Part shown: positions 12,896 to 25,131 of the stretch, in pieces | Layout of the letters: every line of letters begins with the position of its first letter | Position numbering within the stretch: position 1 is the stretch's first letter | Assembly (NCBI GenBank): GCA_021792615.1 | Contig: JAJYUJ010000020.1 | Coordinates: 1 to 50,088, forward strand | Source: a bacterium | GTDB lineage: Bacteria > JAMCPX01 | DNA length: 50,088 nucleotides | Reading direction: 5' to 3' | Position numbers and translations under genes: made by a program | The notes under the pieces: model-generated | The model's input: the letters and a program-made list of their open reading frames with translations, nothing else | What the model was told of the DNA's origin: nothing | The model's database searches: none

Positions 12896-15139
12896 ATGAA
12901 ATTTATAAAAATAATATTGTTATCCTTCATAATTACGATAGGAGGCACCGGTGTTTTAAAGGCAGATACCCTGTCTTCATCCGGCACGCTCATACTACAT
13001 GTTTCGATAGGTCATACAGGCAAACCCTTGCCGGGCGCTGCCATAACGGTTCGCTCGGACAGTGCGACGATAACCGGCACTACGAATACCTATGGCCAAT
13101 GTATCATTGCCAGCCTGAAACCCGGCATCTACAGCGTTAAGATACATGCAAAGGAATTTGAAGAACGAACAATAACGATCAACATTACCGGCGGGCAGGC
13201 CTCGCTGCACGATATCAATCTCCATAGCGAACTTGTCTATACGGTGCATGCACATACACTGGTCATGAACACGAAAAGTTCTTCATCTTCTACAGAAATA
13301 TCGCACAAAACAGTATCGGCTTTAGCAGGAAGCGACAACCTTTCCAAGCTACTGTATACGGTTCCCGGTGCTGCACAGGGACCTTTTGGAGAGGTGCATT
13401 TCCGCGGTGCCCACACAGAAATAACGTACAGAATCGACGGCGTCGATATACCTTCCGCTGTCTCGGGAAGCTTTTCGGACATACTCGATCCTCAGGACAT
13501 CCAGAGTATAGACGTCATGACAGGCGGTTATCCCGCCGAATATGGCAACAGCCTTGCCGGTGTCGTAAATATTACAACCAGACAGCATCCGGAAAAGGAG
13601 ATAGGTATAAAAGAAGGCAACTTCGACACACACAGCATAAACTTTAATGTCTCGGGCAACAAATCCGCATTCACCTATGCTTTATCGGGCATAAGCTATT
13701 TTACGGGCAGAGGTCTCGACACCCCGGTTGTAAACCCGATTCACGACAATCTGTTAAAACATTCGTTGTTCGGTAATTTCAGCTATATGATTGACAACAA
13801 CGACAGGGTGAGTGTGCTGCTGTACGGGGATATATCTCAATATCAGATACCGAATACGGACCTTCAACAGGCTCTTGGGGTGAATGATAATCAGAACGAA
13901 TCCAATGATTATGAAACCATCCTCTGGCACCACAATTTCCAGAGTGATTCCAATCTTGTCGTATCTGTGTACAGGCGCGGATCCACACTCGGCTACGACG
14001 GGAGCCCTTCTGATCTGTACGGCGGCTCGGTCACATCCCCTGCATACCTGAACGATGTTGCCGAGTCATTCCTTGGTTCCGGGGCTCAGGCAAATTATAC
14101 AAACGAGGTACTAAAGCACAATCAAATAAAGGCTGGAGCAAGCTACAAGTATTTGATCAACAAACAGTACTTCTTTCTGGCTGAAAGCCCCCAATCATAT
14201 CCGCCATTTTATGATAACCATACGGACAGGGGGTTCGAATACAGCGGTTACTTGCAGGATGAATTGTCGTATGATCCCGTGACGATAAATGCCGGACTCC
14301 GGTATGATTACATCAATGAATATGTCGCTGCCGATCAGCTCAGCCCGCGTATCGGGATAGCGGTAAAACTCTTAAAAACAAATTCTATCCACGCTTATTA
14401 TGGACGTTTTTTCCAGCCTGCACCGTTCGAAAATATCCATGTAAACTCAATACCCATGTTTGCGAACCAGAATATGAGTATACCTCTTCAGCCTGAGCGT
14501 GACAACTACTTCGAAGTCGGAGACCAGCAGATGATAACCGATTATCTCCTCGCAAAGCTTACCTGGTACTACAAACTGATGACCAATGTTATAGATTACA
14601 ACCAATTGCTGAATTCCAACATCTATGTTCCCTATAATATCCAATCCGGTTATACCAGGGGCATTGAATTCAGCATTAAATCAAGAGAGGTTGACGGGCT
14701 GTCCGGAGAGTTCAACATAGCGTGGGAACGGTCTCAGGGAAAGGGCGCTATAACCGGCGGATTGTTCACGGTCGAACCGGTACCGCAGGGCTATTTCTAT
14801 TTCGATCACGATCAAACATACACGTCCTCGGCACTCATCAATTACCGGGACCACGGATTCTGGAGCACGCTTGATCTCGAATACGGCAGCGGTCTCCCGT
14901 ATGGATACAATGCTGTTACAGGGGATGTAAACTATTTAAGGGTCCCTCCGCACACTATTGCAGGTTTAAATTTAGGATACAATTTCGAAAAGGGATTCTA
15001 CCTTGGCAAATCGGATATAGAACTTGATATAGGCAATATCCTGAACACATCGTATCTGATAAACCAGCAAAACGGATTTAACAATACCCATTGGGGGAGT
15101 CCGCGTACCATAGCTATTCTGTTTAAAAAATATTTGTGA
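12896..15139 (+). CDS. TonB-dependent outer-membrane receptor
   Basis: A 747-residue receptor. It starts with a signal peptide (about residues 1-23, ending VLKA) and a carboxypeptidase-regulatory-like domain (about 30-110; TGKPLPGAAITVRSD). The plug domain follows (about 130-225: YRIDGVDIPS, MTGGYPAEYGNSLAGVVNITT in part). The remaining 500 residues show alternating aromatic beta strands of a 22-strand barrel. The substrate cannot be told from sequence. The gene is followed 8 bases later by exbB, exbD and tonB, so this receptor has its own energising complex. A strong AAGGAGG lies before the ATG. A metal chelate or vitamin is possible given the small HDHP protein upstream, but this is a guess. 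Confidence 0.9.
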   Translation: MKFIKIILLSFIITIGGTGVLKADTLSSSGTLILHVSIGHTGKPLPGAAITVRSDSATITGTTNTYGQCIIASLKPGIYSVKIHAKEFEERTITINITGGQASLHDINLHSELVYTVHAHTLVMNTKSSSSSTEISHKTVSALAGSDNLSKLLYTVPGAAQGPFGEVHFRGAHTEITYRIDGVDIPSAVSGSFSDILDPQDIQSIDVMTGGYPAEYGNSLAGVVNITTRQHPEKEIGIKEGNFDTHSINFNVSGNKSAFTYALSGISYFTGRGLDTPVVNPIHDNLLKHSLFGNFSYMIDNNDRVSVLLYGDISQYQIPNTDLQQALGVNDNQNESNDYETILWHHNFQSDSNLVVSVYRRGSTLGYDGSPSDLYGGSVTSPAYLNDVAESFLGSGAQANYTNEVLKHNQIKAGASYKYLINKQYFFLAESPQSYPPFYDNHTDRGFEYSGYLQDELSYDPVTINAGLRYDYINEYVAADQLSPRIGIAVKLLKTNSIHAYYGRFFQPAPFENIHVNSIPMFANQNMSIPLQPERDNYFEVGDQQMITDYLLAKLTWYYKLMTNVIDYNQLLNSNIYVPYNIQSGYTRGIEFSIKSREVDGLSGEFNIAWERSQGKGAITGGLFTVEPVPQGYFYFDHDQTYTSSALINYRDHGFWSTLDLEYGSGLPYGYNAVTGDVNYLRVPPHTIAGLNLGYNFEKGFYLGKSDIELDIGNILNTSYLINQQNGFNNTHWGSPRTIAILFKKYL

Positions 15140-15147
15140 GGTGAAAC

Positions 15148-15774
15148 ATGCAAAACATATCAAATGCGTTACAGTTTATCATGAAAGGCGGGATCATGAT
15201 GTACCCGCTTCTGTTCGTATCCGTCGTATCCATGGCATTGATCATCGAGAGGCTGATGTTCTTCGCCAAGATAAACAATCTGGATGTCTCATTACTGCAA
15301 AAAACAAAACACCTGTTAACGGACAATAAAAGGGAAGACTTAAGGGCTTTTCTGTCGAGCCAAAAAACGCCGGTTGCCGATGTACTCATGACCGGCGTGG
15401 ATACCATGGATTCAAATGCGAACGACATGGATATTGCAATGGAGCAGCACGCGGTCAGTATCATACCGAAACTCGAAAGTAAATTATGGCTGCTTGATAC
15501 CATTATCACCATGGCACCCTTGCTCGGGCTCCTTGGCACCATAACCGGTATGATCAAGGCGTTCCAGATATTCTCGACAAAAGGTCTGAACCAGCCCACC
15601 GCAATATCCGGCGGCGTTGGCGAGGCACTTATAGCGACGGCAACCGGTTTGATCGTTGCTGTTTTTACCCTGCTGTTTTACAACTACTTCAACACAAAGG
15701 TACGGCGATTGATAAAGGACATGGAGTTTGCGTCCAATGAATTCCTCAGAATGGTCAAGCAGGTAGAGCCATGA
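15148..15774 (+). CDS. exbB: ExbB/TolQ-family proton channel subunit
   Basis: A 208-residue inner-membrane protein with three predicted helices (about 13-31, 113-135, 158-180). The conserved MAPLLGLLGTITGMIKAF and the GVGEALIATATGLIVAV segments are the MotA/TolQ/ExbB signature. It uses the proton gradient, with ExbD, to drive TonB. It is placed between the receptor and exbD, with a GAGGTG Shine-Dalgarno, which favours ExbB over TolQ; a separate tolQ exists at 40166-40900. Confidence 0.92.
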   Translation: MQNISNALQFIMKGGIMMYPLLFVSVVSMALIIERLMFFAKINNLDVSLLQKTKHLLTDNKREDLRAFLSSQKTPVADVLMTGVDTMDSNANDMDIAMEQHAVSIIPKLESKLWLLDTIITMAPLLGLLGTITGMIKAFQIFSTKGLNQPTAISGGVGEALIATATGLIVAVFTLLFYNYFNTKVRRLIKDMEFASNEFLRMVKQVEP

Positions 15775-16175
15775 AGATACGGCAATTGGAACCGCCGAAA
15801 AAGGCACGGATAGAGATCATCAACATGATCGATGTGATATTCTTCCTGCTGGTGTTTTTTATGGTTACATCCGCCTCCATCATAGCCATGAAAGGGATCA
15901 AGGTTGATCTTCCGCATGCATCGACAGCAAAAACGACGGATGCCAAATTTATAACCATTACCCTGACAAAAGGCCAAAAGCTTTTTGTCAACGGCAAAAA
16001 GACGAACCCGGACCGGCTCTCTGCAAAGCTGTCGCAGGAGCTTATAGAATATCCGGATGATGTGGTTGTGATCAATGCTGACAGGGATTCTAACTATGGC
16101 GCTGTTGTAAACATCATGAATATATCCCGGGAAGCCGGTGCAACGAAATTCGCCATTGCAGCCGTAACAAAATAA
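15771..16175 (+). CDS. exbD: ExbD/TolR-family subunit
   Basis: A 134-residue protein with a single N-terminal transmembrane helix that carries the essential aspartate (NMIDVIFFLLVFFMV), then a periplasmic domain. It overlaps exbB by 4 bases (ATGA), so it is translationally coupled. It belongs with ExbB and the TonB protein that follows 5 bases later. Confidence 0.92.
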   Translation: MKIRQLEPPKKARIEIINMIDVIFFLLVFFMVTSASIIAMKGIKVDLPHASTAKTTDAKFITITLTKGQKLFVNGKKTNPDRLSAKLSQELIEYPDDVVVINADRDSNYGAVVNIMNISREAGATKFAIAAVTK

Positions 16176-16179
16176 AATT

Positions 16180-16815
16180 ATGGAAACGGATCAGCAAAAG
16201 ATATTTTTGATTGCAGCAGCCACTCTTGCGGTAGCGCTGCACATTGTCGCATTGTACGCCATAGGATGGATAGGCATATCAAGCAGGAAACAGCCGCAGA
16301 AAATCCTTATCCCCGTAACGATGCAGATAAAACCTTTCGACAAAGTCACCAAACCAAAGATACCCGTTCGCATAAGTCATATTCATCCGCAACGGATCCA
16401 TCCGGTCAAAACCGGGCATAACAAGTTTTTGGCAAGTTCCACAACGACAAATCATGGATTTTCAGTACCATCCGGAGGAAACATAAAGGCAGGAACAGTG
16501 CTTGCACATCAGGGTACATCAGCTACTTCAACATCCTCAGACAGCATCTTCCTGCCCCCCATACCGATCTTTAATCCGCTGCCTGTTATACCATCAAACC
16601 TGAGAACACACGGGTACAGTACGTACGTGCGGGTTGAATTCTTTGTAAGCAGGGATGCTTCGTTTACCTCGAAACTGCTGTCATCCACAGGCTATGATGA
16701 ATTGGACAGAGTGGTGATAGATACACTCAAGAAGTGGAAATTTTCTCCCGCAACCATGGACGGGCAACCGGTAAACGGTACGCTGAAGCTGCGCATACAG
16801 TTTTCAGTAAATTAA
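16180..16815 (+). CDS. tonB: TonB-type energy transducer
   Basis: A 211-residue protein with one N-terminal helix (about residues 9-29), a proline- and Ser/Thr-rich periplasmic linker (about 40-140), and a C-terminal TonB domain with VRVEFFVSRDASF, the YDELDRVVIDTLKKWKFSPA motif and a final LRIQFSVN. It contacts the TonB box of the receptor and passes on energy from ExbB/ExbD. No clear Shine-Dalgarno is seen, so it is probably coupled to exbD. It ends the operon; a hairpin follows at once. Confidence 0.9.
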   Translation: METDQQKIFLIAAATLAVALHIVALYAIGWIGISSRKQPQKILIPVTMQIKPFDKVTKPKIPVRISHIHPQRIHPVKTGHNKFLASSTTTNHGFSVPSGGNIKAGTVLAHQGTSATSTSSDSIFLPPIPIFNPLPVIPSNLRTHGYSTYVRVEFFVSRDASFTSKLLSSTGYDELDRVVIDTLKKWKFSPATMDGQPVNGTLKLRIQFSVN

Positions 16816-16875: not shown

Positions 16876-18342
16876 CTACGGGTAGGAAGCAAGGGCGATC
16901 TGCCAGTGCGCTCCGTCGAAATACGAGCAGTAAAGGAACATACTGTTTATGAGAAAATCGGGAGACTGAGTACCGCTCATAATGCTCAATCTTGGATTCG
17001 TGTATGACTTTACCCATGTCATGCCATCTTCCGATGTTGCATAATTAATAGTCAGATTTCCTGTTGCGCTGATGCCCGTATAATACATTTTATACACGCT
17101 CCCGTCTTTCGTAACACTGGGAGCATACGCACCATACGTATCAGGACCGGAGCCCGAAACATCGACGACCGGGGCTTCCGCGCCGTTGGAACTGAACTTC
17201 GTCCAATTTACACCGTCAAGAGACGTAGCATAACCGATGCGCCATGTCGTGCCGTCATAACCGGCGAACCACATCTTATATATGCCGCTGTCCTTTATGA
17301 CAACCGGGAATGCTGCACCTCTATAATCCCATGCACCTGTCGTACCTGTATTTAACGCCGGAGTACTGTTTACGGTCCAGGTAATACCATTAGCAGAGGT
17401 TGCATAGCCGATGCGCATGAACGTGCCGTCATACCCTGTAAACCATGCCTTAAAAATACCGTTATCAAACATCAGACTTGTGCCGGAAATGTCCGCAGAA
17501 TAAAACGTTGACGTGCTTATGCCCATGACCGGGTTGCCGTATTTCGTCCATACCCTGCCGTCTGCCGACGTGGCTAACCCTACGTTCCACGTTGTTCCGT
17601 TACTCCCCGAGTAGAGCATATAAAATTTTCCGCCCTCGTTGATCACGGACGGCCACGATACACCGGCGCTGTCCCAGCCCGAACCTGAAACTCCTAAAGC
17701 CGGCTGGCTGATAACCCGCCACGGGATAGAGAGTACGTTAATACCTATGGAGGAGGTTGCCTGCGGTGCAGACGTATCCGAAAAAGCTATGCTTGCCGGA
17801 CCTTCCCTGTTAAGCCATGCGGTAAACGTTTCGGTGCCGTTAGAAAATTGAGAGACCGAGGTCGGTGTAATGTCTCCCCAGCTTGAACGTAACATCAGGG
17901 TACCATTGTATGTCGGGAGTACCGTGCTGTTGAGCATCGCGGACACGGTTATGGAAAACGGCTGGTCTTCAATCGTTGTAAACGGCGCTGACCCGAAGAA
18001 TGAGGTTGCAAGCAGGCTCAGGACCATCGGCAGTGCCTTAACTGTCTGTCCGGCAACAACCGCGATCTGCTGGGAGCCGGACTCGTATCCGGTCATGGCT
18101 GCGTTGATTGTTTGCGTGCCCGCAGGAACGCCGGTCAGCATATAATTGCCCGATGCGTCCGTGTATGCCATAAACGGAGTTCCGCTCACATACACCAGCA
18201 CATTTTGGTATGACGACTGTCCGTTCAGCACAACACTTCCCGTAATACTCCCTGTTGAAGAGCCGTTTGATGAACTGCCGCAGCCCGCTGCGAACATGAG
18301 AACAATCATGAAAATCAATGGCAGGAGTTTCTTTGTCTTCAT
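16876..18342 (-). CDS. Exported lipoprotein: carboxypeptidase-regulatory-like domain plus five-bladed-propeller (glycosidase-like) domain
   Basis: A 488-residue lipoprotein with lipobox FAAGC (Cys21). Residues 30-105 look like a carboxypeptidase-regulatory/beta-sandwich domain (GSITGSVVLNGQSSYQNVLV in part). Residues 210-488 have at least five repeats built on motifs such as YKMWFAGYDGTTWRIGYATS and GITWTVNSTP; this pattern (YxMWYxGxD...IGxAxSxDGxxWTK) is that of GH43/GH130/sialidase-type propellers. Whether it retains enzyme activity is unknown. It is the last of four coupled genes; the Shine-Dalgarno AGGAGG is located in the last codons of the preceding gene. Probably outer-membrane anchored. 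Confidence 0.75.
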   Translation of the reverse strand: MKTKKLLPLIFMIVLMFAAGCGSSSNGSSTGSITGSVVLNGQSSYQNVLVYVSGTPFMAYTDASGNYMLTGVPAGTQTINAAMTGYESGSQQIAVVAGQTVKALPMVLSLLATSFFGSAPFTTIEDQPFSITVSAMLNSTVLPTYNGTLMLRSSWGDITPTSVSQFSNGTETFTAWLNREGPASIAFSDTSAPQATSSIGINVLSIPWRVISQPALGVSGSGWDSAGVSWPSVINEGGKFYMLYSGSNGTTWNVGLATSADGRVWTKYGNPVMGISTSTFYSADISGTSLMFDNGIFKAWFTGYDGTFMRIGYATSANGITWTVNSTPALNTGTTGAWDYRGAAFPVVIKDSGIYKMWFAGYDGTTWRIGYATSLDGVNWTKFSSNGAEAPVVDVSGSGPDTYGAYAPSVTKDGSVYKMYYTGISATGNLTINYATSEDGMTWVKSYTNPRLSIMSGTQSPDFLINSMFLYCSYFDGAHWQIALASYP

Positions 18343-18346
18343 TTTC

Positions 18347-19453
18347 CTAAAACCTCCTGTAAACTGCGTACTTTAATGCCCTGTTCCTGTAGTCCCGGTA
18401 GCTGACGTGCGCATTGTTGTTCGCATCGAGCTTCAAAGAAGAGTACAACCCGACAATGCCTTCGCCGTCGATAATATCAACGTTGAACCCCACACCGTTA
18501 TACCATGCGTATTTGAGGTCTCCGTTCACGCCGTCAAAGTAAGTTATATGCGGATATCCATAGCTGTCGATTGCAATCGAGGTGTCCGTACCCACTCCGT
18601 AGCTCGAATCCGCAATATGGATATCCCACAGTTTCCGGCTGTTGTCGTACCATGCACACTTCAACTGCTCGTTCGTTGCATCGTAATAGCTAATGAACGG
18701 TGTGCCGTCAGCCCTTATCGCAAGCGAGGCATACCTGCCCGCATCATCCCCGCTGCCGCCGTCAACCGTCGTTATCGACCATCCTGTGCCGGTAAAATGC
18801 GCGTATTTCAATGCACCGTTCGATGCATCGTAATATGCAATGGCGGGGTTGCCCGACGGATCAAGGGCAAGCGAGCTATAGAGACCAACCTGCCCGAGGA
18901 AATCTACGGTCGTAATGTTAAAACCTGAGCTTGTGCCGGTAGCCAGTTTTAAGTCGCCGTTGGTAAAATCATAATAGCTGATCACGGGCTCGTTGTTCTT
19001 ATTTATGGCAAGGGAAGCAAATCCTCCGACGTTTGCGTAAACACCGTCGACGACGGTTATGGAAAAGCCGGCATTCGTTCCCGTTGCGAGCTTCAAACGG
19101 CCGTGCGTGTTGTCATAATACGCGATGACCGGTTCGCCGTTTTTATTCAAGGCAAGGGAAGAGAACATGCCCACATTGTTTCCGCCGCCGCCGTCAACCG
19201 TCGTTATGTTCCAAGCACCGGCTGCAGCCGACCACTGTGCAAGACGCAGGCTGCCGTGGGTAACATCGTAATATGAAATAGACGGATTGCCAGAGCTGTC
19301 GAGTGCGAGCGAGGTGTATTCGCCGACATCAGCGCTGTTGTCCACAATAACCGAAGGGAACAAATTTTGTGTTTGCTGTAATCCGGATATGTCTTTACCG
19401 CAGCCTGATGCTATACCGAGTATCATGAAGAACAAAATCGCCTTTCTCATCAT
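18347..19453 (-). CDS. Exported lipoprotein with seven SYYD-type repeats (putative beta-propeller)
   Basis: A 368-residue lipoprotein with lipobox IASGC (Cys18). After a short linker it is made of seven repeats of about 44-48 residues, each with the core SLALDxxGNPxISYYDxxxGxLKxA and a [IV]TTVDG strand, which would form a seven-bladed propeller. No catalytic motif is evident; a binding function is more likely. It overlaps the upstream OmpA-type gene by 4 bases and lies 4 bases before the next lipoprotein, so it is the third of four co-translated exported proteins. I do not know a named family for it. Confidence 0.75.
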   Translation of the reverse strand: MMRKAILFFMILGIASGCGKDISGLQQTQNLFPSVIVDNSADVGEYTSLALDSSGNPSISYYDVTHGSLRLAQWSAAAGAWNITTVDGGGGNNVGMFSSLALNKNGEPVIAYYDNTHGRLKLATGTNAGFSITVVDGVYANVGGFASLAINKNNEPVISYYDFTNGDLKLATGTSSGFNITTVDFLGQVGLYSSLALDPSGNPAIAYYDASNGALKYAHFTGTGWSITTVDGGSGDDAGRYASLAIRADGTPFISYYDATNEQLKCAWYDNSRKLWDIHIADSSYGVGTDTSIAIDSYGYPHITYFDGVNGDLKYAWYNGVGFNVDIIDGEGIVGLYSSLKLDANNNAHVSYRDYRNRALKYAVYRRF

Positions 19454-20937
19454 TGCCCCTTTATTATTTTGAATTCTACCCTTCTGTTCCTCGCCCTGCC
19501 TGCCGCGGTGCGGTTTGATGCAATGGGTGATTCTTCGCCATAACCGGCCGCTGTAAGCCGGTCAGCAGCTATGCCGTGCCGGGCAAGATAGTCCATAACG
19601 GACTGTGCCCTTTTTTTCGAGAGTTCCTTATTGTATGCCGGCGAGCCTATATTGTCCGTATACCCTTCTACACGCACGTGAATATCCGGGTTATATTTCA
19701 ACAGCGTTACGACGTCATCGAGTATCGCATAAGAACCGTGAAGAATAACGGCACTGCCCAGCCTAAAATGGATGGCGTGGGTTATTTCTATCTTCATGCC
19801 GAGTTTGTTTATATAAGCATTTTTAAGCCTTGTCTTGTAGACCGAAGCCGGTTTCGGCGTTGCCGGCGGGGGTGCCTGTACCGGGACTGCATGGGGTGTT
19901 TGCTTTTTGACCGGCGCCTGATGTACGGGAGCAGGTGCAGGTGCTTCAGTGGTTGCAGCAGCCTTTTCCATGGGACAAGCTTTTTCGACAGGAGTCTTGC
20001 ACGGTATAATCTTATATCCGATTTCAACATACAGGTCCCATGGCGCGTACGGGTATGAGGTTGTCGCTGTTACATCGGAAAGCTTCTGGGGCATACCGAT
20101 GTCACCGGCGGCAAGAAGGTACAGCCTGTTTGGCAGTACAACCTTGATACCGGGGGTTATATAAAACGGATTTTGTAAAAATGACGGACTGCCGAGAGAA
20201 GCAAGACTCGCTTTGTAGTACTTGTACCCGGACGCCTGCTCTGTAGAGAGCTCGATGAACGGGTGCAGAAGGTTGTTTAAAAAAACACCTTCGAGCCCCA
20301 GGTTGCCTATGAACCTGTTGTCCCCCCGTATGCCGAGGCCATACAGTCCGGTTACATTATAACTATACGGGTTACCGATCAGGTTTGATGAATTATCGCC
20401 ATAATAACCAAGATTCACATGAACCAGCAATGGTGTAAACCGGGAAACGCCGGTCAGATTGAATGTGAACAGCAGCAGACCAAGGTAGCTTGTAGCAGAT
20501 GTATTGAAACCAAGCCCGTCCGCAGAGGACAGAAACCTCGGCTGGACAAGCGCACCGGCACTGAACCATTTGTTCAGATCATAGCCATACTTGACGGTAA
20601 GCCATACATCCCCGTTGTCATGATACGTGTTCTTGTTTAAAACAAAGGTGCTCTGATAAAGGCTTATGCCGAGGTCAAGCCCCCGCACAAGGGAGAAATA
20701 GCCGAAATCGAGATGTGAACTCAATGACTGATAGGTATTGTCACCTCCCAGGAGATTTGAGGTGTTCACATAGGTCACCCCTCCCGATTCATAAAACCCC
20801 GGCTGTGAGACGGCAGCAGATGTCGCATGCTCAAGACCCGGCTGTCCGATCACGTTTGCGTAGGTGTTCACCGCAGCTCCAAGCATCAAAACAAAAAAAG
20901 ACACACAAGAAAAAACATGAGTTCTTATCCGTTTCAT
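19450..20937 (-). CDS. Outer-membrane beta-barrel protein with C-terminal OmpA (peptidoglycan-binding) domain
   Basis: A 495-residue protein. A signal peptide (about 1-27, ending AAVNTYA) is followed by a beta-rich, aromatic region (about 40-310) that resembles a transporter-like barrel, a Pro/Ala-rich linker (about 320-365, APAPAPVHQAPVKKQTP), and an OmpA/MotB domain (about 385-495) with DIHVRVEGYTDNIGS, LSKKRAQSVMDYL and NRTAAGRARNRRVEF, the peptidoglycan-binding pattern with D and R. It is second in the four-gene operon, 13 bases after the large anchored protein, and overlaps the next gene by 4 bases. It may hold the complex to the cell wall. Confidence 0.82.
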   Translation of the reverse strand: MKRIRTHVFSCVSFFVLMLGAAVNTYANVIGQPGLEHATSAAVSQPGFYESGGVTYVNTSNLLGGDNTYQSLSSHLDFGYFSLVRGLDLGISLYQSTFVLNKNTYHDNGDVWLTVKYGYDLNKWFSAGALVQPRFLSSADGLGFNTSATSYLGLLLFTFNLTGVSRFTPLLVHVNLGYYGDNSSNLIGNPYSYNVTGLYGLGIRGDNRFIGNLGLEGVFLNNLLHPFIELSTEQASGYKYYKASLASLGSPSFLQNPFYITPGIKVVLPNRLYLLAAGDIGMPQKLSDVTATTSYPYAPWDLYVEIGYKIIPCKTPVEKACPMEKAAATTEAPAPAPVHQAPVKKQTPHAVPVQAPPPATPKPASVYKTRLKNAYINKLGMKIEITHAIHFRLGSAVILHGSYAILDDVVTLLKYNPDIHVRVEGYTDNIGSPAYNKELSKKRAQSVMDYLARHGIAADRLTAAGYGEESPIASNRTAAGRARNRRVEFKIIKGQ

Positions 20938-20950
20938 TGTTTTCCTATCC

Positions 20951-23311
20951 CTATTGTTTAGGAATTATTTTATTTTTTTTACTCTTGATTGTTTCTTTTA
21001 ACTGTCTGCCGCGTGCAGCGATGAAGGTGACGGACAACAAGACAAATGATACAAGCAGGAACACGAACACATTATTGCCGTTGTCAAACGGTACGGTACC
21101 GCATCCGCCCGATACGTTCGTCGTGACGGTATAGGTTATCGCCTCGGTAGACGAGGTATTCCCCGCCGCATCCACCGCCTTTACATACAGCGTATGACGG
21201 CCAACAGGGCTGTTCCCGACATCGATGGTGTTTTCACCGGAGCCAAGCGTCGTAAACGAAGCAGGGTTGTCCACCGCATACATAAGCCTCGTTTGAGTAA
21301 CTGCGCTGCTCGCTTTGAAGGTATAATAGGGGTAATCCGCTTTTGACAGGGTCAATTGCGGGGGTACGGTATCCACGGTAAAAAGAACGGAATCTCCGGT
21401 AACGGTAGCACCGGTTTGTGCATCCATAACCCGGAGCTGAAGCGTGTGTTGACCATCCATAAGATTATCGAGCTTTATGGTCGTATCCGTTGTCCATAAG
21501 GACCAGCCCTGCCACACAGGGCCGAACACGGATTGATCGGAAATCCTCCAGGAAACCTCTGCATGCGGAGGCAAAGCAGAACTGAGGGTAAACAGCACAC
21601 CGGAACGCGCGTTGATCAAAGGCTGCAGGGTGTTTCCTTCGAGGGACATTGTCTTCAGAGAGCCTGTCATTTGGTTATTGTATGCTAGAATACCCACCAG
21701 CGGCATTGAGAGCGTGGAGAGGTTCAGTAAATTCATAAATCCGGTTAAATCGAGATATACATTGATGTATCCGCCCGATGGTACGATATCCTTTACCAGA
21801 ACGGTCACACCGCTGAAGGAAAAAGCGGAACTCATCGCAGGCAGAGCTGTTCCGATAAAGCTTGTTGCGAGTCCCAGTCCCATTTGAATCACGCTGTTCA
21901 CATTGGATGGATTGGTCAGCTCGGATGCGAGCACCACATCGCTGATATTCATACTGCCCGGGGTGCTGTCTATGGCTATAACAAGCATAGGGTTACCGTT
22001 TGCATCCAGCTTGTTCTGATCGAGATAGACATCTCCCTTAATAGAAACATCGGCACTCAAAACAAAGGCGTCGGCGTACTGAGTATTGTAATTGGCACTC
22101 GCATCAGGGTAGGTCTGCGCCTCGTCAACGCCCAATTGTCCCTCGATGATGATGCCGTTCAGCGTAATCGTATCCCATGTATTCTGCGGCGAGCCCAGGG
22201 TAATCGTAGGCGCCTGTGTGGGTATGATCTTCAGAATCAGGGTTCCGGTACTCGGCAGTTCGGGAATCAGTCCTTTGAGCAGTCCGACAGGCAGCGGCGG
22301 AGAGGAGAAACACATCAAGCCGCTCTGATAAACAGCATATAATGCCTGGTTTATGATATCCTGAGAAACGCCGAACCCGAGCATGACATCGGACCTTGAG
22401 GTATCGATGGTAGGCGCTGCTATAGTTGGTGTAGGCGGTGCGGCGATGGGCAGCGGCAGGCATGGTGCCGGCGCTCCTGCAGGGCCCACCCCTCCGTCAA
22501 GGCTTATGTCCATTGCATTGTCGGTGATGTTCAATGCCTGGTAGAACAATGACGGCCTGAGCTGATATGCAACAGGCGGATAGGTGCCGTGGATGTACAG
22601 ATTGATATTGATTTTGCTCAGCATCTGGTTTATCTGCGGGATCAACATGTTCTGAACAGCAGAGTTCACGGCAGAATTGACACTTCCCTGAATCAAGCCC
22701 CATATTGTAGGCCATAACCAACCCGGTACTGGAAAGCCGCATAATGAAGGCGGAGATGGTTGTTGTATTGATATAGTTATATTCGGGTTCCCTACCAATG
22801 CCAATTTTAAATAATGACCATCTATACTTGGTTCCACATTCACGGACACCGAAGCATCGGCATTCAGATTATAGAGATCAAATCCGCACGAACTACAATA
22901 GAACGGCCAACCGAAGTTATACCATACTGTTCCATGAATATCAGCGATGTATACATGTATATCGTTGACTGCCAATGATATGCTTTGCGTTGCCCCGTTC
23001 CATGCAAGATTGAGGTTCGGCTGGCTATTGTATTGGCCGGGAATTGTTATTTGTGTATTAAATGAATCAATTTCATAGCCGAAATTATACCACGCTACCG
23101 GGCAACCACCCGGCACTTGAGGCACTGAATAATTCATGCTCAAGCCTGTGAAGTTCTGGGAAACATAGTTCAGGAAGGTTTGATAGACAACTATGTTTGC
23201 AGCATTGGGTTCCCAGAGCGGAGGTACAGATGTATCGGCAAACCCCTCTGTGGAAAACAATAAACCCGTTATTAAAAAAACCCCTGTCGCGAAATAAAAT
23301 AATTTATTCAT
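20951..23311 (-). CDS. Large exported protein with BPI/TULIP-like halves and a GGC-type C-terminal anchor
   Basis: A 786-residue protein of unknown function. It has a signal peptide (about 1-25, ending GFA). Two large segments (about 30-290 and 300-570) have alternating hydrophobic strands and amphipathic stretches such as SAVNSAVQNMLIPQINQML and VIQMGLGLATSFIGTALPAM, reminiscent of lipid-binding BPI/TULIP domains; this is an inference from pattern only. Residues 580-730 resemble two Ig/FN3-like sandwiches (VDTVPPQLTLS, YVKAVDAAGNTSS). The C-terminus has SGGCG (Cys737), a transmembrane helix (about 748-764) and a basic tail (RGRQLKETIK), the layout of MYXO/Synerg/JDVT-type CTERM sorting signals. 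It is first in a four-gene operon. Confidence 0.6.
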   Translation of the reverse strand: MNKLFYFATGVFLITGLLFSTEGFADTSVPPLWEPNAANIVVYQTFLNYVSQNFTGLSMNYSVPQVPGGCPVAWYNFGYEIDSFNTQITIPGQYNSQPNLNLAWNGATQSISLAVNDIHVYIADIHGTVWYNFGWPFYCSSCGFDLYNLNADASVSVNVEPSIDGHYLKLALVGNPNITISIQQPSPPSLCGFPVPGWLWPTIWGLIQGSVNSAVNSAVQNMLIPQINQMLSKININLYIHGTYPPVAYQLRPSLFYQALNITDNAMDISLDGGVGPAGAPAPCLPLPIAAPPTPTIAAPTIDTSRSDVMLGFGVSQDIINQALYAVYQSGLMCFSSPPLPVGLLKGLIPELPSTGTLILKIIPTQAPTITLGSPQNTWDTITLNGIIIEGQLGVDEAQTYPDASANYNTQYADAFVLSADVSIKGDVYLDQNKLDANGNPMLVIAIDSTPGSMNISDVVLASELTNPSNVNSVIQMGLGLATSFIGTALPAMSSAFSFSGVTVLVKDIVPSGGYINVYLDLTGFMNLLNLSTLSMPLVGILAYNNQMTGSLKTMSLEGNTLQPLINARSGVLFTLSSALPPHAEVSWRISDQSVFGPVWQGWSLWTTDTTIKLDNLMDGQHTLQLRVMDAQTGATVTGDSVLFTVDTVPPQLTLSKADYPYYTFKASSAVTQTRLMYAVDNPASFTTLGSGENTIDVGNSPVGRHTLYVKAVDAAGNTSSTEAITYTVTTNVSGGCGTVPFDNGNNVFVFLLVSFVLLSVTFIAARGRQLKETIKSKKNKIIPKQ

Positions 23312-23939: not shown

Positions 23940-25070
23940 TTAGTGTATAGCATACAGCTTGCCATCCCCGGACCCCACATAGATGGTACCGTCCGCACCA
24001 ATCGCAGGCGATGAATCAATCCAATTCCCGGTTGTGTAACTCCATTTAAGGGTTCCATTGGGATTAATAGCATACAGCTTGCCATCTCCGGATCCTACAT
24101 AGATAGTGCCATCCGCTCCTATCGCCGGTGATGAATCAATCCAATTCCCGGTTGTGTAACTCCACTTGAGGGTTCCATTCGGATTAATAGCATAAAGCTT
24201 GTGGTCATCAGACCCCACATAGATAGTACCGTCCGCCCCTATTGCTGGCGACGAGTATATAGTGCTTCCCGTGGTGTAGCTCCATTTGAGTCCGCCATTG
24301 GGATTGATTGCATAAAGATTATCATCAAATGATCCGATGTATATAATCCCATCATTTCCTATCGCTGGAGAAGATTGAATTTCACCGTCAGTGGTGTAGC
24401 TCCATTTGAGGCCGCCATTGGGATTGACTGCATAAAGATTACCATCAAACGATCCGATATATATAATTCCATCAGTTCCTATCGCCGGGGAAGAGGTTAT
24501 AGGACCATTGGTGGTATAACTCCATTTCACGGTTCCATTTTGATTAATCGCATAGAGTTTGCTTCCCAACCCAACATAAATTGTCCCATCTACTCCTATC
24601 GCAGGAGAGGAAATTCCCCCAATAGTAGTAGCGCTCCATTCGACACCGCCATTCAAATTGAAAGCGTAGAGATAAGTATTTTCTAGGCTGTAAATTGTTT
24701 TATTTACTCCTATTGCTGGTGAAGATTGTATAGATAAATTACTACTACCATAATCCCATTTAAGACTACCTGAGGGACTTATTGCATAGATCTTGCCATC
24801 TTCTGAACCTATATAGATTGTACCATCTACACCTATCACTGGCGCTGAATCAATCCAATTGCCTGCAGTCGTGTAGCTCCATTTGAGTGCACCTGTTGTG
24901 GAAGTTGTATCGGTGGTGCTTAACCCGGTATTCCTTATGTTTCCTCGGAATTTCGGCCACGGTGAATTTGCCAGACCATTAGGCATATTGCTTTTATTCT
25001 TCCCGCAACCAGCTATCAGAGCAAAGGCAATAAAACAAAGAATTGTAAATTTGGAAACATTAGTTTTCAT
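23940..25070 (-). CDS. Exported lipoprotein with PQQ-like beta-propeller repeats
   Basis: A 376-residue lipoprotein with lipobox LIAGC (Cys22 from the ATG at 25070, which has AAAGGA 8 bases before it; the longer TTG start at 25076 lacks this). The body is eight to nine tandem 40-residue repeats of the form SSPAIGADGTIYVGSGDGKL + YAINPNGTLKWSYTT. Such repeats belong to the outer-membrane-protein-assembly BamB/PQQ-like propeller superfamily, and a closed propeller of eight blades is likely. No cofactor or enzyme motif is evident, so the role is probably binding. The protein stops in the middle of a repeat (KLYAIH). It stands alone. Confidence 0.82.
   Translation of the reverse strand: MKTNVSKFTILCFIAFALIAGCGKNKSNMPNGLANSPWPKFRGNIRNTGLSTTDTTSTTGALKWSYTTAGNWIDSAPVIGVDGTIYIGSEDGKIYAISPSGSLKWDYGSSNLSIQSSPAIGVNKTIYSLENTYLYAFNLNGGVEWSATTIGGISSPAIGVDGTIYVGLGSKLYAINQNGTVKWSYTTNGPITSSPAIGTDGIIYIGSFDGNLYAVNPNGGLKWSYTTDGEIQSSPAIGNDGIIYIGSFDDNLYAINPNGGLKWSYTTGSTIYSSPAIGADGTIYVGSDDHKLYAINPNGTLKWSYTTGNWIDSSPAIGADGTIYVGSGDGKLYAINPNGTLKWSYTTGNWIDSSPAIGADGTIYVGSGDGKLYAIH
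23946..24900 (-). repeat. 120-base coding tandem repeats of the PQQ-like lipoprotein
   Basis: The motif (A/T)GCATA(C/A)AG(C/A)TT recurs with a spacing of exactly 120 bases at about 23951, 24071, 24191, 24311, 24431 and 24551, each unit giving 40 residues. The two most 3' units encode the same 40 residues but differ at about a dozen synonymous sites, so the repeat is protein-conserved rather than freshly duplicated. The units nearer the gene start are more diverged. Confidence 0.85.
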
Positions 25071-25131
25071 AATCAATTCCTTTTATCCTTAATAAGATTT
25101 TCACTTCTCGGATTGCCCCACTTATATACGT

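Follow-up and report, generated by a model that had tools for sequence, protein, structure and literature searches.

A Cys-type C-terminal tail as candidate substrate of a myxosortase-family protease in a little-known phylum-level lineage of bacteria

Cys-type tails are paired with related CPBP enzymes in the Synerg-CTERM/MrtS system, and the catalytic motifs of CPBP proteases are EExxxR, FxxxH and an H near the end. The wider Mrt families are said to have been described for the first time in a J Bacteriol paper of 2024. In MYXO-CTERM/MrtX, exemplified by TraA of Myxococcus xanthus, the signal has a generic GCGC motif, the conserved cysteines (plural) of TraA are needed for cleavage, and the cut is made by MrtX, a glutamic protease of the CPBP family, and not by a rhombosortase, according to the account in PMC11980579. 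The same source describes Cys-type tails with related CPBP enzymes for JDVT-CTERM/MrtJ.

The window analyzed here (the whole stretch of 50,088 nucleotides, contig JAJYUJ010000020.1 of assembly GCA_021792615.1) encodes a 786-aa exported protein which, like the MYXO-CTERM proteins as portrayed in PMC11980579, has a signal peptide and a Gly-Cys, helix and basic tail at its end. The genome of this uncultured bacterium likewise has a CPBP-family glutamic protease, a T2SS and surface-type substrates that include proteases (PMC11980579, for the M. xanthus side). It differs in having one Cys in the window tail, which is matched by neither TIGR03901 nor TIGR03382, in an enzyme that scores 114.1 bits against the MrtX cut-off of 180 and belongs to a lineage clade apart from the myxobacterial enzymes, and in the number of tails, with three found as opposed to the 35 given for M. 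xanthus in PMC11980579. The enzyme is above the cut-off of Mrt_core (NF040914) and keeps its catalytic positions, but falls in no named subfamily, and its gene lies behind mutS. With regard to JDVT-CTERM and Synerg-CTERM, the window tail is unmatched and the enzyme is below the cut-offs of MrtJ and MrtS.

In the best reading, a myxosortase-family enzyme has the window tail as its substrate, a divergent one of the Cys type that is akin in kind to these signals and lies outside the curated CTERM models. The tail very probably serves as a Cys-type C-terminal sorting signal for the genome's own myxosortase-family intramembrane glutamic protease. Myxosortase-type surface sorting is known chiefly from myxobacteria, and this would extend it to a little-known phylum-level lineage, represented here by nine genomes.

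The tailed protein and its gene neighborhood

The features of the tailed protein and of the genes that follow it are given below.

20951..23311, - strand: exported protein with sorting tail, 786 aa (ORF including stop)
23234..23311, - strand: N-terminal signal peptide, residues 1-26, MNKLFYFATGVFLITGLLFSTEGFAD (by eye from the sequence)
21122..21502, - strand: C-terminal Ig-like region, approximately residues 604-730 (PF19077; start of region approximate)
21086..21112, - strand: SGGCGTVPF motif, residues 734-742, conserved in orthologues
21101-21103, - strand: codon of Cys737, within SGGCGTVPF
21014..21070, - strand: hydrophobic helix, residues 748-766, 19 residues (computed from the sequence)
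20954..21013, - strand: basic cytoplasmic tail, residues 767-786, 20 residues (8 K/R and 1 E)
19450..20937, - strand: 495-aa protein with C-terminal OmpA peptidoglycan-binding domain (PF00691, E 1.8e-22)
18347..19453, - strand: 368-aa lipoprotein-like ORF with propeller-like repeats (ORF list)
16876..18342, - strand: 488-aa lipoprotein-like ORF, carboxypeptidase-regulatory-like with glycosidase-like propeller (Pfam)

The C-terminus of the 786-aa protein reads ...TVTTNVSGGCGTVPFDNGNNVFVFLLVSFVLLSVTFIAARGRQLKETIKSKKNKIIPKQ in the ORF translation. This translation and the measured tail bear out the coordinates, the SGGCG ending with Cys737 and the basic tail given in the preliminary description; the hydrophobic helix before the tail is also present but comprises 19 residues (748-766; mean Kyte-Doolittle value 2.8) and not the 17 that had been reported. 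Cys737 is the seventh cysteine of the protein and, with the six others paired with each other, would be left unpaired. The Ig-like region was identified by PF19077 (Big_13) with an E-value of 5e-07 (30.6 bits, cut-off 27; best stretch 673-729), while the first 600 residues gave no Pfam match at E<=1.

Orthologues of this protein were identified in four genomes of the lineage (G001, G002, G003, and G007); a first contig scan with the 786-aa protein as query had yielded no relative. In the G002 copy, the contig ends before the tail is reached. Compared with the orthologues of G003, G001 and G007, identity is 9/9, 9/9, and 8/9 in SGGCGTVPF, 17/19, 8/19, and 4/19 in the helix and 18/20, 3/20, and 0/20 in the basic tail, and the G007 orthologue ends in FIIRL with hardly any basic cluster. 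A motif under selection next to a freely drifting hydrophobic helix is the pattern predicted for a sorting signal. A plain inner-membrane anchor left uncut, with the GGC being incidental or the Cys engaged in a disulfide, would have no need of a fixed SGGCGTVPF beside a drifting helix. This explanation is quite improbable, although the G007 orthologue retains its helix with almost no basic cluster, positive-inside helices near the C-terminus are common, and the window tail is unmatched by CTERM models.

The gene of the 495-aa protein begins 13 bases downstream of the tailed gene and adjoins it also in G001 and G003 (loci L004 and L005), but not in G007. Its N-terminal part is perhaps an outer-membrane barrel. 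TraB model NF033763 gave this protein 94.5 bits against a cut-off of 700, over residues 380-492 only, and it was rejected as a TraB homologue, sharing the OmpA domain only. The 368-aa ORF has a homologue among the G007 genes with GC tails (41% identity over 299 aligned positions), and the 488-aa ORF closes the apparent operon. A lipoprotein-like ORF made up of PQQ/BamB-type propeller repeats is located upstream of the tailed protein (23940-25076). Elsewhere in the window, positions 12896-16815 were seen by eye to hold an ORF resembling a TonB-dependent receptor and, after it, ExbB-, ExbD-, and TonB-like ORFs, indicating an outer membrane.

A Cys-tailed exported protein with the gene of an OmpA-domain protein close behind it is also what PMC11980579 outlines for TraA/TraB, from which the locus differs in that the neighbor matches TraB in the OmpA domain only and the matches of the large protein included no TraA model. 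The gene pair, the OmpA domain and the weak matches of two tailed relatives to a BPI-type model leave room for a TraA/TraB-like surface pair, of which the anchored partner would be a BPI/CETP-like (TULIP) lipid-binding protein, but we regard this as very improbable. Such a pair, if real, would handle lipids at, or between, outer membranes in a non-myxobacterial lineage; TULIP families as such are known in bacteria, as covered by PMC6791001. The matches in question are those of LBP_BPI_CETP_C to tailed proteins of G006 (15.1 bits) and G007 (19.5 bits), both under the cut-off of 23. They were the only ones in the nine genomes at E<=10, a search in which the window protein was unmatched and two of the 14 controls were positive too. 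Comparison with the DUF4403 profile gave E-values (0.33 and 0.55) that did not improve on a subtilase control (0.46), the window-protein profile found nothing meaningful among PDB sequences, and an AF2 model of the window protein, made from the single sequence without an alignment, had a pLDDT of 35.

Related tails and the search for sorting routes

A first tail profile was built from eight tails, with the window tail alone representing its own genome. It identified two more tails there (E-values of 0.0011 and 0.0185), and the search for further tailed proteins proposed in the preliminary description was thereby rewarded; weaker matches were dropped wherever the site had no long ORF ending in such a tail. 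Both extra tails were added as rows to a second profile of 15 tails, which was run on the nine genomes of the phylum-level lineage. This gave 29 places at E<=3.9e-4, spread over 9/9 genomes, comprising 15 training places and 14 new ones, all sitting at C-termini, and the following match had an E-value of 0.054. The own genome (2.54 Mb) has three tails at E<=7.6e-13, all three being rows of the profile, and its next match is at E 0.12. Four short ORFs passed a crude filter (on the + strand of L229, L245, and L004, and one of 188 aa on L162) and were discarded by eye. The other two tails of the genome are the following.

C11:72567: second tail, protein of 1245 aa, GGCSCNTTG..., subtilase by Pfam
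C58:2426: third tail, protein of 812 aa, SGCMCTQSG..., subtilase by Pfam

Both proteins have tails of the GCxC type and signal-like N-termini, and subtilases account for five of the eight tailed proteins scanned with Pfam. Such tails are also present on exported proteins, such as subtilases, that are unrelated to the 786-aa protein; that unrelated exported proteins end in the same G-C and helix also argues against a plain membrane anchor. With a motif that is fixed while helix and tail drift, and a tail profile that finds few, well-separated matches in the genome, the C-terminal sorting tail of the 786-aa protein is confirmed as real, beyond chance.

One tailed protein of G007 (L245:2652-5018) has a match to family 15 of the glycosyl hydrolases (E 4e-05), and tails are therefore not limited to proteases. 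In G007 (L036:5126-16968) and G006 (L037:2743-11846), large GC-tailed proteins whose ends are Ig-like are encoded in clusters, and in between them lie propeller-type lipoproteins that are relatives of the product of window positions 18347-19453.

The tail had been likened to MYXO-CTERM, Synerg-CTERM, and JDVT-CTERM signals. It is of the same kind, namely a Cys-type signal, but the proposed HMM search with curated NCBIfam CTERM models gave no match to the window tail at E<=10, TIGR03901 and TIGR03382 included, and models of GlyGly-CTERM and PEP-CTERM were likewise absent among its matches. The best tail of the lineage reached 18.6 bits with the MYXO-CTERM models (cut-off 20), and other lineage tails matched JDVT-CTERM weakly (E 0.16-0.39). 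One tail of G022 scored 16.0 bits with TIGR03382 (cut-off 15.85), the remaining scanned tails being below cut-off. The 29 tail places gathered here are thus a collection of which the tested members lie below present CTERM cut-offs.

Processing by rhombosortase or archaeosortase-like enzymes, as also put forward in the preliminary description, found no support. No rhomboid (PF01694; 14/14 controls positive) and no exosortase (PF09721; 2/14 controls positive) was found at E<=1 in the own genome, whose assembly is rated 99.55% complete. The Gly-Gly ahead of the helix does recall GlyGly-CTERM, and a tripartite layout is common to such signals in the description given by PMC11980579. Nevertheless, with both homologues missing at E<=1 from so complete an assembly and neither GlyGly-CTERM nor PEP-CTERM models turning up for the tail at E<=10, the chance that the tail is a substrate of a rhombosortase (GlyGly-CTERM) or of an exosortase/archaeosortase (PEP-CTERM-like) is close to nil.

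The myxosortase-family enzyme and its co-occurrence with tails

The candidate enzyme is encoded as follows.

C12:75660-76316 of the own genome (G000): Mrt protease gene, 219 aa, on another contig than the tailed gene (PF02517, NF040914)

The search of the own genome with PF02517 (CPBP family) gave this single protein above the cut-off, with 61.8 bits. The remark that no sorting protease lies in the window agrees with its being encoded on another contig. A second match of 14.1 bits, below the cut-off, is antisense to a longer ORF. The 219-aa enzyme passes Mrt_core NF040914 with 112.1 bits (112.9 in the genome search) against a cut-off of 100. The search for MrtX-type proteases, likewise proposed earlier, yielded one myxosortase-family protease, and the MrtX-type route found backing in this enzyme and the two other tailed proteins. 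The refuting condition set in the preliminary description, a genome devoid of other such tails and of a sorting enzyme, was thus not borne out. The enzyme is under every cut-off of the named subfamilies MrtX, C, P, S, Z, and J, including MrtP (163.9 bits, cut-off 250), MrtC (126.6, cut-off 195), MrtX (114.1, cut-off 180), MrtS (89.1, cut-off 130), and MrtJ (55.8, cut-off 75).

Residues E126, E127, R131, F164, H168, and H204 are invariant among 10 aligned proteins. The AF2 model of the G003 orthologue, which is 96% identical to the own enzyme, had a pLDDT of 93.4 (alignment of 30 sequences), and the PDB entry that matched it best was 4cad, the Rce1 protease (rmsd 3.1 across 198 residues; Z 15.2), the next PDB row having a Z of 3.7. 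Foldseek alone gave E 0.029 with a probability of 1.00, and the sequence profile of the enzyme found nothing among PDB chains at E<=10. The enzyme is accordingly predicted, on the model of its orthologue, to have an Rce1-type membrane fold.

Orthologues of the enzyme are present in 8/9 genomes of the phylum; Mrt was not found in G002, which is 82% complete and does have tails. The G004 match runs to its contig end, and in G003 the gene is found on two contigs (C116 and C208), each copy being 96% identical to the own gene; this is probably an assembly duplicate. The tree puts the enzymes of the lineage in one clade of their own (100/100) that is separate from those of the myxobacteria; the order of the deep branches is not settled. 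The enzyme gene is unlinked to the tailed genes. Within the lineage, mutS precedes the myxosortase gene (L035:9700-16320; L045, L038, L039, and L046), and topA and a dprA-like gene stand before this pair. The myxosortase gene likewise follows mutS in G022 and G051 (L040 and L190), which are members of other families; a search for the own mutS at the myxobacterial Mrt loci, some of which are short, was negative.

A total of 241 genomes (the nine of the phylum and 232 others) was searched with Mrt_core and with the tail profile. A strong Mrt was defined by at least 67.9 bits, which is above a score gap reaching down to 45.2, and a full-span tail match as one running from profile position <=9 to >=36, i.e., from the Cys through the basic end; both the span and bit thresholds were chosen after the data were seen. 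The tail search scored up to 29 candidates per genome, so that large genomes are under-counted. A strong Mrt is present in 25/232 outside genomes. Full-span tails occur in 12 of the 232 among these candidates, and 10 of the 12 have a strong Mrt (Fisher 1.9e-9), or 9/11 (Fisher 1.4e-8) when G022, whose tail is a training row, is left out. Of the two exceptions, G196 (80% complete) shares its family with the Mrt-bearing G051, and the match of G151 (L218) is not at a fitting C-terminus. Tail matches at E<=0.05, scored in the same way, occur in 39/232 outside genomes, of which 10 have a strong Mrt (p 0.003). The 27 genomes with matches not spanning the Cys have none (0/27). With the curated cut-off of 100 bits the overlap is 6/12 (Fisher 6.6e-6). 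The other 15 of the 25 strong-Mrt genomes are without a full-span match among their scored candidates (up to 29 each), presumably because their tails differ. Outside the lineage, full-span tails thus mark myxosortase-bearing genomes, with post hoc thresholds, and their tracking of Mrt in other families is a further point against an uncut anchor.

The proposed sorting route

The reading of the tail as a signal for the genome's own enzyme draws on direct observations, i.e., the anatomy of the tail, the constraint on its motif, a single Mrt-type enzyme with no rhomboid or exosortase, the other tailed exported proteins, the T2SS genes and the co-occurrence across genomes. The pairing of this particular tail with this enzyme, and a cut near Cys737 by Mrt, would follow by analogy with MYXO-CTERM/MrtX. 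In the proposed route, the signal peptide would direct Sec export of the 786-aa protein, and the C-terminal helix would keep it in the inner membrane so that SGGC737 faces the periplasm. Cys737 would then be lipidated by a putative acyltransferase, and a cut by Mrt beside it would remove the helix and basic tail. On the same analogy, it is plausible that Cys737 is lipidated and that the 786-aa protein is probably lipid-anchored on the outer surface.

Several observations count against this reading. There is only one Cys in the window tail, unlike in the generic GCGC of MYXO-CTERM, and no CTERM model matches the tail; the enzyme is outside the named subfamilies and its gene is unlinked to those of the tails. 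Furthermore, G002 has tails without Mrt, the G007 orthologue is nearly without a basic cluster, 15 of the 25 outside genomes with strong Mrt have no full-span tail (up to 29 candidates scored in each), and the overlap shrinks at other thresholds.

It is also conceivable that Mrt cuts without prior lipidation and that the protein is released or periplasmic, perhaps bound by its OmpA-domain partner (19450-20937), the gene of which is 13 bases away and is kept in G001 and G003. No acyltransferase is known, and the account in PMC11980579 leaves open that MrtX may need no modification of its substrate. A conserved Cys is, however, hard to account for without modification. As stated in PMC11980579, a lipidated Cys is the target of CPBP relatives such as Rce1. 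We consider cleavage without lipidation unlikely.

If the tail is indeed read by the myxosortase-family enzyme, one enzyme and the three substrates identified in this genome of 2.5 Mb would make a compact test case. With one Cys in the window tail and GCxC in both other tails, this genome can show which Cys the enzyme and acyltransferase need, a point described as open for M. xanthus in PMC11980579.

With respect to the T2SS, on which the surface display of MYXO-CTERM proteins depends, the GspD of the own genome scored 552.8 bits (cut-off 351.35), and GspD was above the cut-off in 7/9 genomes of the phylum. The ORFs beside the own GspD gene were read by eye as gspC, gspE, and gspF.
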